Assembly (NCBI GenBank): GCA_016342755.1 | Contig: JAEINS010000008.1 | Span: forward strand, 62,001-126,000 | Length of the DNA: 64,000 nucleotides | Direction of reading: 5' to 3' | DNA from: Melioribacteraceae bacterium | GTDB taxonomy: Bacteria; Bacteroidota; Ignavibacteria; Ignavibacteriales; Melioribacteraceae | The notes under the pieces: generated by a model | The model's database searches: none | The model's input: the letters and a program-made list of their open reading frames with translations, nothing else | Told to the model about the DNA's origin: nothing | Position numbers and translations under genes: made by a program | Shown here: in pieces, positions 8,438 through 57,262 of the stretch | Position numbering within the stretch: the first letter of the stretch is position 1 | Layout of the letters: each line of letters opens with the position of its first letter

Positions 8438-11603
<3,166 letters not shown>

Positions 11604-28909: not shown

Positions 28910-29162
28910 GTCCCAAAAGCACAATTACAAGGCTGTCAAGAACCATTTCTTGACAGAGAAATTAAATATTAGAATTATAATAAGTAGATAATAGAGTCAT
29001 GAAATGGTTCATGACTCCCATGTGAATTTTGTCACCTTGAGCCTGCCTGTCGGCAGACAGGCTTGTCGAAAGGTGGAGATTTAGCTCGAAATCCTAACTT
29101 CGATAAATTTATACTGAGTTTAGTCGAAGTACTCAGTTTGACGGATTTCGACCTTTTGGGAC
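28910..29162. repeat. 253-bp nested palindromic element
   Basis: The element is bounded by perfect inverted repeats GTCCCAAAAG (28910-28919) and CTTTTGGGAC (29153-29162). Inside are further perfect stems: CTGTCAAGAA/TTCTTGACAG (28933-28956, 4-base loop), GAGTCATGAA/TTCATGACTC (28994-29017, 4-base loop), CACCTT/AAGGTG (29033-29075) around CTGCC/GGCAG, TCGAAATCC/GGATTTCGA (29086-29151) and ACTGAGT/ACTCAGT (29113-29137). No coding capacity. It fills the gap between convergent genes and may be a MITE-like or composite palindromic repeat, and also a terminator. Confidence 0.85.
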
Positions 29163-52087: not shown

Positions 52088-52996
52088 TTACTTTTTATTT
52101 GAATTGTTTAACCGGGTTACTTTAACAATACTAAAAACCAGTATTAATACACCAATCCACTGAAATGAGTTTAGTAACTTACCTCTTAGAAAATACTCCA
52201 GTATTACTGCGGTTAAAGGGAATGCTAACTCATAAATTGTAGCCGATGAAGCCGATATTTTCTTCAATCCATAATAATATAAAAATATTGCCGGAGCTCC
52301 GGTTGTACATGCTATTAATAAAAATATGATGATTTGTCTGTCCGAGATTTCAGAAATTGAATTATAATCACCGCTAACCGAAACTATTACCAGCATTATA
52401 ATTGCAGTAAATAAAAAGCGCAAATAAGTTCCTAATTCAAAACCGGTATTTTTTAATGCCCGTTTACTAAATACTGTTGAGGAACCAAAACTAACTGCTG
52501 CAAGCAGCGCAAACGAAGCAGCCATTAATGTTTTATCACCAGTATCAAGATCAGGTAAATTAATTCCAAAGGTCATTAAATAAGCTCCTGCTATTGCAAA
52601 TAATCCCCAAAGAAAAAATTTAGCCGAAAGTTTTTCTTTAAGTACTATTGATGCTAAGATTATTGCAAAGAGAGGTTGTAATTTTTGAATCAGCATTACA
52701 ATTGATAAGTTCACATAGTTGACGTAGAAAAGAGCTTTTGTGATAGCCATTGTACCAATTGCGCCGCCGAATATGGCAACACCTACAAATGAAAAATAAT
52801 CTTTTGCTGATAAATTTTTAATCGCCGGGAAATGTTTATATATAAAAGGTATTAGTAATACCGACACAACCGCACTATTTAATAATACAACTAATGGAAC
52901 AGGAAGTGTGTAGAGATTCGGAGTTAGAACAATGCCGTCAACTCCCCAAAGACTTGCAGCAATTATAACAAATAAAGGTGTGTATTTATCTTTCAA
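52088..52996 (-). CDS. EamA-family (DMT) transporter
   Basis: A 302-aa protein with ten predicted membrane helices in two repeats of five, the EamA/drug-metabolite transporter layout. Markers: ASLWGVDGIVLTPN near the start, FGGAIGTMAITKALFYVN and IMLIQKLQPLFAIILASIVLKEKL closing the first repeat, then APAIFLYYYGLKKISASSATIYELAFPLTAVILEYFL in the second (shown by YGLKKISASSA and ELAFPLTAVI). The substrate cannot be told. Confidence 0.88.
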   Translation of the reverse strand: MKDKYTPLFVIIAASLWGVDGIVLTPNLYTLPVPLVVLLNSAVVSVLLIPFIYKHFPAIKNLSAKDYFSFVGVAIFGGAIGTMAITKALFYVNYVNLSIVMLIQKLQPLFAIILASIVLKEKLSAKFFLWGLFAIAGAYLMTFGINLPDLDTGDKTLMAASFALLAAVSFGSSTVFSKRALKNTGFELGTYLRFLFTAIIMLVIVSVSGDYNSISEISDRQIIIFLLIACTTGAPAIFLYYYGLKKISASSATIYELAFPLTAVILEYFLRGKLLNSFQWIGVLILVFSIVKVTRLNNSNKK

Positions 52997-53112
52997 GTTT
53001 GGTCAAAATCCATAAAATTTATAATGGCAAATTTAGAAAATTAAAAGTTAAATTGTATGTCTGTCGGACTTAATGTTCCGCAATCCGGGGGTTATCGAAC
53101 CCTGACAATCAA

Positions 53113-53211
53113 TGTCAGACTGAGTAGCGAAGCGTAGCGAAGTATGAGTTATGAAAAAACATTATACCGGGGTTCGATGCAATTCCGTAAACGGAATTAC
53201 TCACCCTGACA
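53113..53211. repeat. palindromic repeat copy B (~99 bp)
   Basis: Begins TGTCAGACTGAGTAG (53113-53127) and ends ACTCACCCTGACA, the same termini as the two copies at 54803 and 55300. The interior differs: it has AATTCCG/CGGAATT with a TAAA loop (53181-53198) and shares ATCGAACCC (53094-53102) / GGGTTCGAT (53170-53178) as an outer stem. It lies between two co-directional minus-strand genes. The adjoining TTGTCACTTCGAGCCTG (53218-53234) is also found in the 28910-29162 element. Confidence 0.8.
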
Positions 53212-53255
53212 TTATAGTTGTCACTTCGAGCCTGTTGAGAAGTCAAAATCAAAAC

Positions 53256-53933
53256 TTAATCCAAATTATCAACTAACCATTTATGGAGTTGATGCATTTC
53301 TTTAAACTTTGAATAAGCATATTCCAATGGATCTTTTTTTAGTTCGTTTAGATCTTTACTCTCGAAGAAACCATAAAATCCATTGTACAATAAAAGATCA
53401 GGATTTGCTACTTCACCATCAAAACCGCGTGGAAGTTTTTTATAATGTTTTCCGCCAAACTGATATCCTTTCTTTTCAAGCTTAGACATTATTTTTGTAA
53501 GCTCTTTATTTTTAACCGGATTGTTAACAGTTTCTCTATATCTTTTTAATGTTTCCTTTGTAAACTGATAAAATCCAGTTCCAAGGAAAAAGCTTTCCGG
53601 ATCTATATGGAAATAATATCCGCTGCATTCCATTTTAGGTTTTGTACCTTCCCAAAAAAGAAGACCAAGATTTGTTTTATATGGCGACTTATCTTTACTG
53701 AATCTAACATCTCTGTTTATTCTGAAAATAGATTTATTAACCCTTGCTTCATAAATGATGTCTGGTGAAATTTCTCTTAATCTCATTCCCATCAGTTCAA
53801 TGAAAATTTTAACCGGCTCAATAACATTGTTTTGATATGTATCTTTATTTTCATGAAACCATTCACGGTTATTATTTAATTTTAATTTTTCGAAGAACTT
53901 TACTGCTTCATCTATAAAGTTTATTTCCTGCAT
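53256..53933 (-). CDS. DUF2461 family protein
   Basis: A 225-aa cytoplasmic protein with the DUF2461 (TIGR02453) pattern: FFEKLKLNNNREWFHENKDTY, RVNKSIFRINRDVRFSKDKSPYKTN (segments), GYYFHIDPESFFLGTGFYQ and the later KKLPRGFDG. No enzymatic function is established for the family. It is the third of four minus-strand genes separated by palindromic repeats. Confidence 0.9.
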   Translation of the reverse strand: MQEINFIDEAVKFFEKLKLNNNREWFHENKDTYQNNVIEPVKIFIELMGMRLREISPDIIYEARVNKSIFRINRDVRFSKDKSPYKTNLGLLFWEGTKPKMECSGYYFHIDPESFFLGTGFYQFTKETLKRYRETVNNPVKNKELTKIMSKLEKKGYQFGGKHYKKLPRGFDGEVANPDLLLYNGFYGFFESKDLNELKKDPLEYAYSKFKEMHQLHKWLVDNLD

Positions 53934-54120
53934 AAAAGTATCCTTTCTTTAGTTTTAGGCGATGAATAATAAGGAAAAACTATCGCAAATTCCAAACAAC
54001 AAAATTCAAATAAAAAATAAATAGGAAATCACAAATTCAAAAGGTCAATAAACAAAGTATCAAACCCAAGATGAGTATCTGCCAGAAAAATTATTTCAAC
54101 TCATTTTTTCAAATCGGAGA

Positions 54121-54648
54121 TTACTTTTTATGTTTTCCGGCAAGTATATAAGGTTCAAACTGCTCATGTAAAAAGTGAAACCAGACATTTTTTATTATAG
54201 CCGGAATTCCTTTGTCAATTTCGCCCGAACCGTTTACAGACAGAACTAATTTTGTTGAGTCATTTTCCATAGCGTAAAAATTATATGTACAAACCAGTTG
54301 CAGAGCTTTACCGGACAATCCTAAAGGACCATCGAATCTTATTTGTTTTCCGCGATCTGAATATATTACCGTTGCGTGAAGTGCACCGTCACCTTCTTTA
54401 TTAAATACTTCGTAGAATCCGCCGCCGGCTTTTGGTTCTATATATAGCTTATATGGATTTTCGTAAAACGAATGATCCCACCATTCACTAATATCTCCGG
54501 TTACCGCATCAAAAATTTCCATAGTTGATCCGGGAAGTGTTAAAGAATCCTTAAATGAAAAAACCGAACATTCTTTTGTTATAATTGAACTATCCTGCGC
54601 GCTGATTGAGATTGTAAAAAATAGTAATATTAGAATAAACTTTTTCAT
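54121..54648 (-). CDS. secreted SRPBCC/START-like protein
   Basis: A 175-aa protein with a signal peptide (1-17, ending SAQ). The mature part has LPGSTMEIFDAVTGDISEWWD, IEPKAGGGFYEVF and GALHATVIYSDRGKQIRFDGP, the pattern of AHSA1/SRPBCC hydrophobic-pocket proteins of unknown ligand. An exported member is somewhat unusual, since most are cytoplasmic. Confidence 0.8.
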   Translation of the reverse strand: MKKFILILLFFTISISAQDSSIITKECSVFSFKDSLTLPGSTMEIFDAVTGDISEWWDHSFYENPYKLYIEPKAGGGFYEVFNKEGDGALHATVIYSDRGKQIRFDGPLGLSGKALQLVCTYNFYAMENDSTKLVLSVNGSGEIDKGIPAIIKNVWFHFLHEQFEPYILAGKHKK

Positions 54649-54976
54649 AATGTTCCTTTAATGATGTTAGACTAAGTAGTCTTACAAAGCTAGCCATATC
54701 GAAGTCTAAATAATATAATAGAATTATATTAAACTTTAAAATTAAGAGTTTAATAACGGGTTTCTTCACAAATAGCTAACAATAAAAACATAAAACTTAT
54801 TATGTCAGACTGAGTAGTTTCGTGGAGCGAAACGTATCGAAGTCCGTGAATAAAAAACGCAAAAGAATTGTGAAAATGTTTCCCGTGTTAGATACGATCG
54901 GAAAGATGATCTACTCACACTGACAACCAATGCCGGAATGGGAAATCCAGATTTCTCAGATGTACCGAAGTCAAAT
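54649..54976. other. gene-free region holding palindromic repeat copy C
   Basis: No gene seen. The region contains the repeat at 54803-54925, and after it a short non-repeated stretch up to the stop of the GIY-YIG gene. Confidence 0.6.
54803..54925. repeat. palindromic repeat copy C (123 bp)
   Basis: Starts TGTCAGACTGAGTAG and ends CTACTCACACTGACA; these imperfect terminal inverted repeats pair at 12 of 14 positions. Inside, GTTTCG and CGAAAC form a hairpin (54818-54834), and a TATC/GATA arm pairs further in. It matches copy D at all but about six positions, in the same orientation. It lies 51 bases after the 3' end of the GIY-YIG gene. Confidence 0.9.
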
Positions 54977-55285
54977 CTATTTATTCCAATTTATCTTTTT
55001 TGAATATAACTTAAGCTCTTCAAAATCACCCTTGATAAGTGCTTCTTTCTTTTTCCTAGTCCAATGTTTGATTTTTCTTTCTGATTCAATTGCTTCTTGA
55101 GGTGTATGAAATTCTTGTGAAAACATTAATTTAATTGGAAGTCGTGTTGAAGTATATGAAGTGAATTTTTTGTTTTTATGTTCATCTATTCTTCGCTCTA
55201 AGTTGCTAGTTGAACCTGTATAATAGCTGTTATCAGAACATTTTAGAATATAAACCCAATATAATTTGCCCAAGTAATCCTCCAT
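54977..55285 (-). CDS. single-domain GIY-YIG nuclease
   Basis: A 102-aa protein. The GIY-YIG core is seen as YWVYILKCSDNSYYTGSTSNLERRIDEH, with the two Tyr motifs (VYIL, YYTGST) and the catalytic Arg; the later SERKIKHWTRKKKEALI carries the conserved Glu. It belongs to the small UPF0213-like class with no fused DNA-binding domain. It sits between two nearly identical direct copies of a palindromic element, 14 bases from one and 51 bases from the other, which suggests a link to their spread (inference). Confidence 0.93.
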   Translation of the reverse strand: MEDYLGKLYWVYILKCSDNSYYTGSTSNLERRIDEHKNKKFTSYTSTRLPIKLMFSQEFHTPQEAIESERKIKHWTRKKKEALIKGDFEELKLYSKKINWNK

Positions 55286-55299
55286 AGAATATTAGTTAG

Positions 55300-55421
55300 G
55301 TCAGACTGAGTAGTTTCGCGGAGCGAAACGTATCGAAGTCCGTGAATAAAAAAACGCAAGAGAATTATGAAAACGTTTCCCGTGTTCGATACGATCGGAA
55401 AGATGATCTACTCACACTGAC
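55300..55421. repeat. palindromic repeat copy D (122 bp)
   Basis: Starts GTCAGACTGAGTAG and ends CTACTCACACTGAC, as copy C. The inner stems are perfect here: GTTTCGC/GCGAAAC around a GGA loop, and CGTATCGAA (55329-55337) with TTCGATACG (55385-55393). It ends six bases before the next gene on the minus strand and starts 14 bases upstream of the GIY-YIG start. Confidence 0.9.
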
Positions 55422-55426
55422 ATTAC

Positions 55427-55885
55427 TTACTTGTTCTTCTCAATCCTTTCTTTCCCTTTTTCACTGATAGCAAAACCGCGTTTCATAGTTTTAATATATT
55501 CAACATTTTTAAATCGCAAAGCAGACCAGTCATCATCAATGGCAATCATTCTAACAGGTTCAAATCCGAGTTTACCAAGCGGCTGCCAGCCGTCATCGCG
55601 TGTTATATCCGATTTGTAGTTTCGGGATGTTTTCTTTGGATAGGCAAACCAAAGCACTGAATCACCAATTAATTTTCCAGTTATTTTCGGCGTATACTTA
55701 ATTATATCTTCTTTTGTCTTAACAAAAACCAAAATAAACTCATATTGCTGTTTACAATTAGGACTTTTCTTAACTGTGGTAATTTCCGCCATTTCTTCAA
55801 GATTAGGTTTAAATTCTTTTGGTGTGTTTAATACATAAAGTTTTTCATAATCTTTAAAGTTCATCTTTTTAAAAACCGCATTCAT
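55427..55885 (-). CDS. conserved hypothetical protein
   Basis: A 152-aa cytoplasmic protein. The best-ordered part is IGDSVLWFAYPKKTSRNY, ITRDDGWQPLGKLGFEPVRMIAIDDDWSALRFKNVEYI; the pattern is familiar from uncharacterised Bacteroidota proteins but I cannot name the family. No signal peptide, no catalytic motif. It is the first gene of the minus-strand series interrupted by palindromic repeats. Confidence 0.8.
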   Translation of the reverse strand: MNAVFKKMNFKDYEKLYVLNTPKEFKPNLEEMAEITTVKKSPNCKQQYEFILVFVKTKEDIIKYTPKITGKLIGDSVLWFAYPKKTSRNYKSDITRDDGWQPLGKLGFEPVRMIAIDDDWSALRFKNVEYIKTMKRGFAISEKGKERIEKNK

Positions 55886-56041
55886 ACTTTCCTCATAAGT
55901 TTTTAATTTGAAGTAAATTTAAGACAATTCATCTTAAAATTAAAATCATAAAAAAAATGTGAAATTATTTATAATAAAAATTCTTTCTTTCTTCTTAAGT
56001 TTATATTGTGAAAATTTTAAATTAAAATTGGATGGCTGTAT

Positions 56042-57262
56042 ATGAAAAAATTACTTTTTATAACAATTATAATTTTATTGGCTGTATCTCAACCAACATT
56101 ATTATCACAAGACAAAGGTGTCTTTAAGGAAAGAAAAGGCGGTTTCATAAAAGAAATTATGAAAGAAGCTAAAAAGTTTAGAAGTCCGGAGAAAACAAAG
56201 AAAAAAAGCTTCAAGTTAGATTTCTCAAATTATGATGTTCCAAAATCGGTTGATGAATTTGAAACTCAGTGGCATAACGATCCAATATCACAAGGATTAA
56301 CAGGAACCTGCTGGGCATTTTCTACAACTTCATATTTTGAATCTGAGATTTACAGATTACATGGTAAAAAAGTTAAATTATCGGAAATATGGACAGCTTA
56401 TTGGGAATACATTGAAAAGGCGAGAGGATTTGTTAGAACTCGTGGAAAATCTTTATTTGCCGAAGGCTCTGAAGCAAACGCTGTAACACGAATTTGGAGA
56501 AAATACGGAGTTGTTCCTGCTGAGGATTTCACCGGCTTATTACCTGATCAGAAATTTCATGATCATAGTAAAATGTTTGAAGAAATGAATGATTTCTTAA
56601 AAAGCATAAAAAAGCAAAATGCCTGGAACGAAGAGTTTGTTGTTGAAACAATAAAATCGATATTGCACAGATATTTAGGAACTCCTCCGGCAATGGTTAA
56701 AGCTGACGGAATGGAAATGACTGCAAGACAATATCTTGTGGATGTTTTGAAGTTGAACCTGGATGATTATATTGATGTTCTTTCTTACATGCAGAAACCT
56801 TATTGGGAAGAAGTTGAATATGAAGTACCTGACAACTGGTGGCACAATAAAGATTATCATAATGTCCCTTTAGATGTTTTTATGAAAACTGTGAAAGAAG
56901 TTTTACGTAACGGATACACAATTGTAATTGGCGGCGATGTTTCTGAGCCTGGCTATGATTCGGAAGCTGAAGCGGCAGTTGTTCCAACTTTTGATATTCC
57001 GGGAGAATATATTGATGAAAACGCCCGTCAGTTTAGATTTAGCAACAAAACAACAACTGATGATCATGGAATTCATATTGTTGGTATTAAAAAGAGTGAT
57101 GATAAAGACTGGTTTCTAATTAAGGATTCAGGTTCAGGATCCAGAGATGGAAATAATAAAGGATACTATTTTTATCATGAAGATTATGTGAAATTAAAAA
57201 TAATGGATTTTATGGTACATAAAAGTGCTGTAAAAGATTTGCTGAAAAAGTTTGGAAAGTAA
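56042..57262 (+). CDS. secreted C1-family (papain/bleomycin-hydrolase-like) cysteine peptidase
   Basis: A 406-aa protein with a signal peptide (about 1-22). The papain-type active site is present as QGLTGTCWAFS (oxyanion Gln84, nucleophile Cys90) and DDHGIHIVGI (His342). The usual third residue, Asn in N-S-W-G, is replaced by Asp362 in WFLIKDSGSG. The insertions between Cys and His (WNEEFVVETIKSIL, PYWEEVEYEVPDNWW) resemble aminopeptidase C/bleomycin hydrolase (C1B). An exported member suggests peptide digestion in the periplasm. Confidence 0.88.
   Translation: MKKLLFITIIILLAVSQPTLLSQDKGVFKERKGGFIKEIMKEAKKFRSPEKTKKKSFKLDFSNYDVPKSVDEFETQWHNDPISQGLTGTCWAFSTTSYFESEIYRLHGKKVKLSEIWTAYWEYIEKARGFVRTRGKSLFAEGSEANAVTRIWRKYGVVPAEDFTGLLPDQKFHDHSKMFEEMNDFLKSIKKQNAWNEEFVVETIKSILHRYLGTPPAMVKADGMEMTARQYLVDVLKLNLDDYIDVLSYMQKPYWEEVEYEVPDNWWHNKDYHNVPLDVFMKTVKEVLRNGYTIVIGGDVSEPGYDSEAEAAVVPTFDIPGEYIDENARQFRFSNKTTTDDHGIHIVGIKKSDDKDWFLIKDSGSGSRDGNNKGYYFYHEDYVKLKIMDFMVHKSAVKDLLKKFGK

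Follow-up and report, generated by a model that had tools for sequence, protein, structure and literature searches.

A single-domain GIY-YIG nuclease gene enclosed by tagged palindromic repeats: evidence for a likely nuclease-repeat cassette

Introduction

Why should a gene for a small GIY-YIG nuclease lie alone between two near-identical palindromic elements? The question arises from a locus in a 64,000-nucleotide stretch of a Melioribacteraceae genome (the window, to which all coordinates without a further label refer).

Palindromes that accompany an enzyme gene are familiar from REP sequences, which have been split into GTAG- and CGTC-tagged superfamilies (Di Nocera 2013, PMC3733652). The CGTC REPs, which include dRS3 of Neisseria and RPE-4/6 of Rickettsia and occur in Proteobacteria, Bacteroidetes, Chlorobi, Spirochaetes and Thermotogae, "apparently lack a dedicated transposase" (PMC3733652). 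That survey makes no mention of GIY-YIG enzymes, and our search of the open-access literature retrieved no paper tying GIY-YIG to repeats or to CGTC REPs, and none with core sequences. A GIY-YIG family, Ssn, which cuts single-stranded DNA at a Neisseria repeat (NTS), was reportedly published in 2025.

Results

The window gene lies between two composite repeats

The window gene encodes a small protein carrying the catalytic residues Y12, Y22, R32, H36 and E69, all invariant across 18 aligned homologs; it meets the criterion for the GIY-YIG superfamily (catalytic Tyr, Arg, His/Tyr and Glu) and is matched by PDB 1zg2 (UPF0213 BH0048; E 2.9e-16). In a phylogenetic tree the nucleases fall into two separate clades, A (containing the window protein) and B (containing that of locus L002), with clade B set apart at an SH-aLRT of 99. 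Window protein and clade-B-type homologs are 30-39% identical. The Neisseria gonorrhoeae homolog groups with clade B (42% to L002) and gave no match to the window protein at E 1e-3. The tree contains too few columns to prove transfer between phyla.

The gene is enclosed by two composite repeats, C and D (Table 1), which agree in 116 of 122 aligned columns (95%; five mismatches and one gap) and share their orientation. The inner end of D lies 14 nt before the start codon, and no other open reading frame is found between the two copies. Each composite copy consists of two inverted half-elements with the GTCA tags outermost; a half-element follows the layout GTCA-GACT-GA-G...C-GA-AGTC, with another hairpin within. 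All composites in the window are inverted pairs, and hence meet the inverted-dimer criterion of the CGTC-tagged REP superfamily. The motif GTCAGACTGAGTAG, allowing up to 3 mismatches, has 11 matches in the window against 1.7 expected, a number reached by no shuffle.

Table 1. Features of the window locus, and the palindromes flanking the single-domain GIY-YIG genes of the source genome.
Feature	Position	Strand	Description
GIY-YIG nuclease gene, clade A	54977-55285	-	102 aa; Pfam PF01541, E 1.3e-19
Composite repeat C	54804-54924	+	121 nt; two inverted GTCA-tagged half-elements; 3' of nuclease gene
C, half-element	54804-54844	+	GTCA tag, GACT stem, GA...GA tandem mismatch, inner hairpin, AGTC
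C, second half-element	54879-54924	-	GTCA tag on minus strand; core damaged, TCTAA for TCGAA
Composite repeat D	55300-55421	+	122 nt; 5' of nuclease gene
D, half-element	55300-55340	+	First half of composite
D, half-element	55382-55421	-	Tandem GA intact
Diverged solo composite repeat	53114-53210	+	GTCA tag at either end
Degenerate half-element	54666-54708	+	GTTAGACTAAGTAG...TATCGAAGTC
Further solo composite repeat	29031-29142	+	GTCA tag at either end; elsewhere in window
Palindromes at window gene			GTCAGACTGAG...
Palindromes at C34 gene			GTCATCCCGAATAG.../GTCATTCCGAAAGAG...
Palindromes at C24 gene			GTCATTCCAGC.../GTCATTCCCGA...; gene with in-frame stop

An earlier, sequence-only reading of the locus had described C and D as about 95% identical, in the same orientation and enclosing the GIY-YIG gene only, with a third, diverged copy nearby. 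All of this held. Its coordinates were right to within one base (the start of C, placed at 54803, is at 54804), while the degenerate half-element and the further solo composite were missed.

Folded as single-stranded DNA, the full C and D repeats outperform their shuffles (z -2.4 to -4.0), and lone window half-elements are weak as single hairpins (z -0.1 to -2.0). Since the energy parameters for tandem G-A mismatches in DNA are only rough, the weight is carried by the covariation test below rather than by folding. A known RNA family was considered and rejected: a search of Rfam with positions 52900-56100 gave no match at E 0.1. A single transcribed RNA is also argued against by the presence of the repeats on both strands relative to the gene.

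Each single-domain gene in the source genome has its own palindromes

The source genome (4.73 Mb, 56 contigs) contains three single-domain GIY-YIG genes; the Pfam search additionally recovered two long multi-domain GIY-YIG proteins and two weak matches below the cut-off. All three single-domain genes are flanked on both sides by palindromes, and each by a different kind (Table 1). An exact core, CTGAGTA-N-TATCGAAG, occurs in ten copies genome-wide against one for the reversed control, and two of the ten adjoin the window gene; these genome-wide counts are pattern searches. The third single-domain gene (L003:1489-1755) carries an in-frame TAG, so that it is perhaps decaying while its repeats persist. 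An apparent GIY-YIG match at C24:215248 was discarded as an unrelated coding region with stops and a score below the cut-off.

Repeats adjoin related genes across phyla

Loci were gathered irrespective of repeats. Searches of 79 family genomes and of named genomes from other phyla gave 82 distinct GIY-YIG loci, which represent this family and about ten phyla besides. For each, the left 300 bases were aligned to the right 300, and a shared repeat was called when the score exceeded the 95th percentile of control positions taken from these loci. The two flanks share a repeat at 40 of 52 clade-A and 23 of 30 clade-B loci (77%), compared with 5% of control positions (rank tests: p 1.2e-16 for clade A, 1.6e-12 for clade B); some 23% of the 82 loci have no repeat common to both flanks. 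Clade-A cores have a density of 3.44 per kb within 400 bp of the gene, 0.37 beyond 900 bp and 0.22 for the reversed motif, all drawn from the same loci. Among adjacent hairpin pairs near GIY-YIG genes, 70 of 91 are inverted. Tandem triplets of GIY-YIG genes, spaced about 370-420 bases apart, were seen at G009:C26:426-1381 and G010:C86:45033-46131.

The association also extends to whole genomes. Among the 79 family genomes, an excess of cores (at least 15 over the reversed control) is found in 17 of the 25 with a clade-A nuclease and in 8 of the 54 without one (Fisher 5e-6). Neither the flank-similarity nor the genome-level tests are fully corrected for relatedness, and the genome-level Fisher test is uncorrected. 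Exceptions run in both directions. G031 and G063 have the nuclease and lack the standard core, and variant cores account for part of such mismatches among genomes. Genome G070 has 43 clade-A cores against 4 in the control, yet no GIY-YIG match at E 1e-4; possibly its repeats are orphans, or an assembly gap hides the nuclease.

Repeats form covarying hairpins whose type follows the nuclease clade

All 144 non-pairing dinucleotide combinations within a stem were scored, with no prior choice among them. GA/GA, which reads TC/TC on the opposite strand, ranks top in both clades (110 hairpins in the 52 clade-A loci and 61 in the 30 clade-B loci), against a median combination of 3 hairpins in clade A and 1 in clade B. 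In clade-A cores collected without requiring a stem, Watson-Crick pairing at outward positions 1-6 exceeds all 200 shuffles, and these positions covary, with three to four pair types at each; the shuffles do not preserve relatedness. We infer from general DNA structure that the pyrimidine-GA-purine context favours sheared G-A pairs, so that one strand alone would fold well.

The two clades differ in their repeats: that of clade A has a variable stem and a G-C closing pair inside the mismatch, that of clade B a fixed GTC-ATNNN...NNNAT-CT frame. Nuclease clade predicts repeat type (Fisher 4e-10), and repeat similarity tracks nuclease similarity even for pairs less than 60% identical. At three loci (L043, L044 and L050) the 3' arm of the repeat directly upstream of the gene, GGAATG, ends in the ATG that starts the nuclease frame; the hairpin may therefore cover the start codon, which leaves room for self-regulation.

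These results bear on the simplest alternative, passive adjacency, under which a small gene has by chance settled among repeats that serve as terminators or recombination hot spots. In its favour, the repeats are intergenic and palindromic, and orphan repeats exist. Against it, no such link is seen at control positions or with reversed motifs, and pairing between nuclease and repeat is clade-specific. We regard passive adjacency as practically ruled out, and the nuclease and repeats as, very probably, partners.

The sequence-only reading had left chance adjacency standing as an option. That option failed, because the association holds in the genome itself (3/3), across 82 distinct loci and at the whole-genome level. 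Neither of the two observations that it had named as refuting a link was borne out: (i) many repeat copies with no enrichment near GIY-YIG genes (the source genome has about 10 exact cores, of which two flank the gene), and (ii) orthologs that keep their neighbours without having repeats (same-clade nucleases in the family mostly have adjoining ones). Its analogy with RAYT/REP pairs held where testable, namely for tagged palindromes, inverted pairs, and solo as well as gene-bearing sites. That the enzyme spreads the repeats, as in RAYT/REP, is only inferred. Its suggestion of an undescribed nuclease-linked repeat system held in part, given that the Ssn/NTS pair of Neisseria was reportedly published in 2025.

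Occupied, solo and empty sites occur

Comparison of related genomes shows sites with the gene, sites with repeats only and sites with neither. Firstly, between cydA and an rrf2-type gene (names read from sequence by the analyst), G064 carries an 838-base block that runs from a GTCA tag to a TGAC tag and contains the gene and several hairpins; G067 belongs to the same genus, and there only 26 bases separate the aligned flanks, whose DNA is 84% and 80% identical. Secondly, the interval between an aldo/keto reductase gene (AKR) and a 734-aa gene (TR) holds the nuclease gene plus repeats in G067 and G064, only a solo inverted pair in G065, and neither gene nor repeat in G069 and G068. The pattern is compatible with gain and loss of the entire unit, without indicating the responsible enzyme. 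The empty sites leave the direction, gain or loss, undetermined. For the window's own locus, no empty site was found among the 78 other family genomes searched; the junction is not alignable because the neighbouring protein (55430-55885) has only distant relatives (best 44% identity, in 9 of those 78 genomes).

Gene duplication bounded by half-repeats is also shown. In G054, a 420-base unit (half-repeat, gene, half-repeat) occurs twice, 6.45 kb apart and 99% identical, and at the second copy unique DNA begins right after the tag. Such a duplication could stem from ordinary recombination between repeats. The two copies (L182:3923-4342 and 10374-10793), whose gene is of clade B, lie within or beside arrays of CGTC-1-like repeats.

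One explanation of these sites is homing: the gene would copy itself into pre-existing repeats by break and repair, and the repeats would spread by unrelated means. Free-standing GIY-YIG homing enzymes are established, the gene lies mostly between repeats, and a site occupied by the gene in G064 and G067 has only a solo repeat in G065. Against this, the nuclease clades differ in repeat type across phyla, each having its own, a pattern that points to joint movement of nuclease and repeats. Homing remains a possibility, though one that we consider less likely than not.

A second explanation is transposition of the RAYT kind, in which the nuclease would mobilise single repeats and the whole cassette through a single-stranded intermediate. 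Direct repeats of at least 3 bases were found at 2 of 77 repeat units against a shuffled mean of 3.4, with a single 5-bp direct match at repeat ends, in L195 only. Classical transposition is unsupported, given no target-site duplications beyond chance at these 77 units, and the criterion for DDE-type insertion sequences or MITEs (a target-site duplication) is not met. The absence of target duplications is as expected of single-strand transposition, and inverted pairs of tagged palindromes, solo copies, and occupied and empty sites likewise speak for the RAYT-like explanation. Against it, GIY-YIG enzymes act by hydrolysing DNA, strand rejoining is not a known activity of theirs, and no fresh insertions were seen. 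We lean slightly against RAYT-like transposition.

CGTC REPs flank clade-B-type genes

CGTC REPs were surveyed around 14 clade-B-type genes taken from plasmid-collection records, some of them chromosome-sized. They occur on both sides of 7 of these genes and on at least one side of 9, compared with both sides in 2 of 56 control windows. The REP-positive genes include those of N. gonorrhoeae, Azospirillum lipoferum, Sinorhizobium meliloti, Rhizobium, Shinella and Aeromonas caviae. Plasmid-filed records of chromosome size are NZ_CP119140.1 (Neisseria gonorrhoeae, 2.17 Mb) and NZ_AP026896.1 (Aeromonas caviae, 4.94 Mb). On an A. lipoferum plasmid (L202, 2492-2785), a GIY-YIG gene with CGTC REPs splits the suf operon between sufB and sufC. 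On a Planktothrix agardhii plasmid (L206), the GIY-YIG gene at 2501-2785 has an MmeI-type restriction-modification gene on one side and the DISARM gene drmA on the other; CGTC REPs were looked for beside it and not found.

A third explanation is Ssn-like control of DNA uptake: the nuclease would cut incoming single-stranded DNA at the repeats and so modulate natural transformation, and the repeats would be kept or spread for that uptake role rather than by the nuclease. The Neisseria Ssn/NTS pair is reported to modulate natural transformation in this manner, a role that speaks for this explanation; the N. gonorrhoeae homolog sits among dRS3-type repeats, and the genome of the window has a ComEC gene. 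ComEC says little here, being widespread (10 of 14 control genomes). Uptake control alone leaves unexplained both the position of the gene inside repeats and the 420-bp duplication, and we hold it to be a little less probable than not.

Discussion

A nuclease specific for its own hairpins

The interpretation that we prefer is that gene and flanking palindromes likely form one cassette, a site-specific endonuclease together with the repeat that it recognises; binding, single-strand cleavage and spread are all inferred, and there are no biochemical data. Under this cassette reading, what the enzyme recognises is a hairpin with a (C/T)GTC(A) tag, whose stem here contains a tandem G-A/A-G mismatch; it occurs mostly in inverted pairs and also solo genome-wide. 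The nuclease would (i) bind the repeat once replication, repair or DNA uptake had extruded it in single-stranded form, and (ii) cut at the tag or hairpin, after which (iii) recombination between repeats would mend the break. Repair of this kind would copy the gene into, or lose it from, other repeat sites, with the repeats multiplying alongside. The parts of this scheme differ in strength. That the enzyme cuts the repeats as single strands is a probable inference, which leans on the reported Ssn work; that it drives their spread is also inferred, and we would not bet on it. Taken together, the best overall reading is probably that of a nuclease specific for its own repeat hairpins, Ssn/NTS-like, with REP/RAYT-like genomic behaviour, although cleavage and spread remain inferences.

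A bolder version would make single-domain GIY-YIG nucleases the dedicated spreaders of a second, many-phylum REP superfamily, reading the GTC tag and a single-stranded hairpin. In this lineage the strand-specific tandem G-A mismatch would mean that only one DNA strand folds into the recognised form. The bolder version is tentative, and we consider it rather more likely to fail than to hold.

What follows more securely, and is in our judgement likely, is that a large class of bacterial repeats, left without an enzyme in the 2013 survey, has its partners in GIY-YIG nucleases, because the enzymes of relatives accompany their own matching repeats and cassettes are present or absent by site. With GIY-YIG genes found between CGTC-type repeats, the origin and movement of these repeats can now be tested with an enzyme of 100 residues, and clade-specific nuclease-repeat pairs would yield several site-specific nucleases whose target rules can be read. 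The reported Ssn work makes the pairing itself less new, but not the evidence for mobility or the GA-mismatch class.

Comparison with known systems

The closest resemblance in repeats is to the CGTC REPs, which share a CGTC or TGTC tag, an AT-initial stem and inverted dimers. Clade-B repeats such as TGTC-ATTCCCGC-GCAA-GCGGGAAT-CCA fit CGTC REP family 1, and clade-B-type genes of Neisseria, Azospirillum, rhizobia and Aeromonas sit between textbook CGTC REPs. The repeats of the window are unlike these, with a GTCA tag, a 4-bp GACT/AGTC outer stem, a tandem GA mismatch and a long inner hairpin. By the criterion of a CGTC/TGTC tag, an 8-9 bp AT-initial stem, a 4-5 nt loop and a CCA tail, the clade-B repeats of relatives pass and C and D fail; C and D are not classed as CGTC REPs because tag, outer stem, mismatch and inner hairpin all differ.

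With regard to the enzyme, the window protein has the catalytic domain of free-standing GIY-YIG homing endonucleases, whose genes are likewise present at some sites and missing from others, but there is no intron or intein, and dispersed repeats take the place of a single conserved gene as sites. The UPF0213 proteins (PDB 1zg2, 1ywl), solved structures named as hypothetical proteins, have the same domain by sequence, and active-site residues are kept in the window protein.

Two systems resemble enzyme and repeat together. RAYT/REP (TnpA-REP with GTAG REPs) also places an enzyme gene amid tagged palindromes that occur solo and in inverted pairs, but there the enzyme is a Y1 HUH transposase and the tag GTAG, whereas the window has a GIY-YIG nuclease and GTC(A); the RAYT/REP criterion, a Y1 HUH gene flanked by GTAG REPs, is not met by a GIY-YIG gene with GTCA tags. 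Ssn/NTS pairs a small single-domain GIY-YIG enzyme with a cognate multi-copy repeat, and its criterion, a small stand-alone GIY-YIG protein with cognate repeats beside the gene, is met. The window protein differs in belonging to another clade, for which single-strand cleavage and sequence preference are only inferred. The window pair thus probably shares its plan with Ssn/NTS and REP/RAYT, and differs from them in nuclease clade and hairpin.
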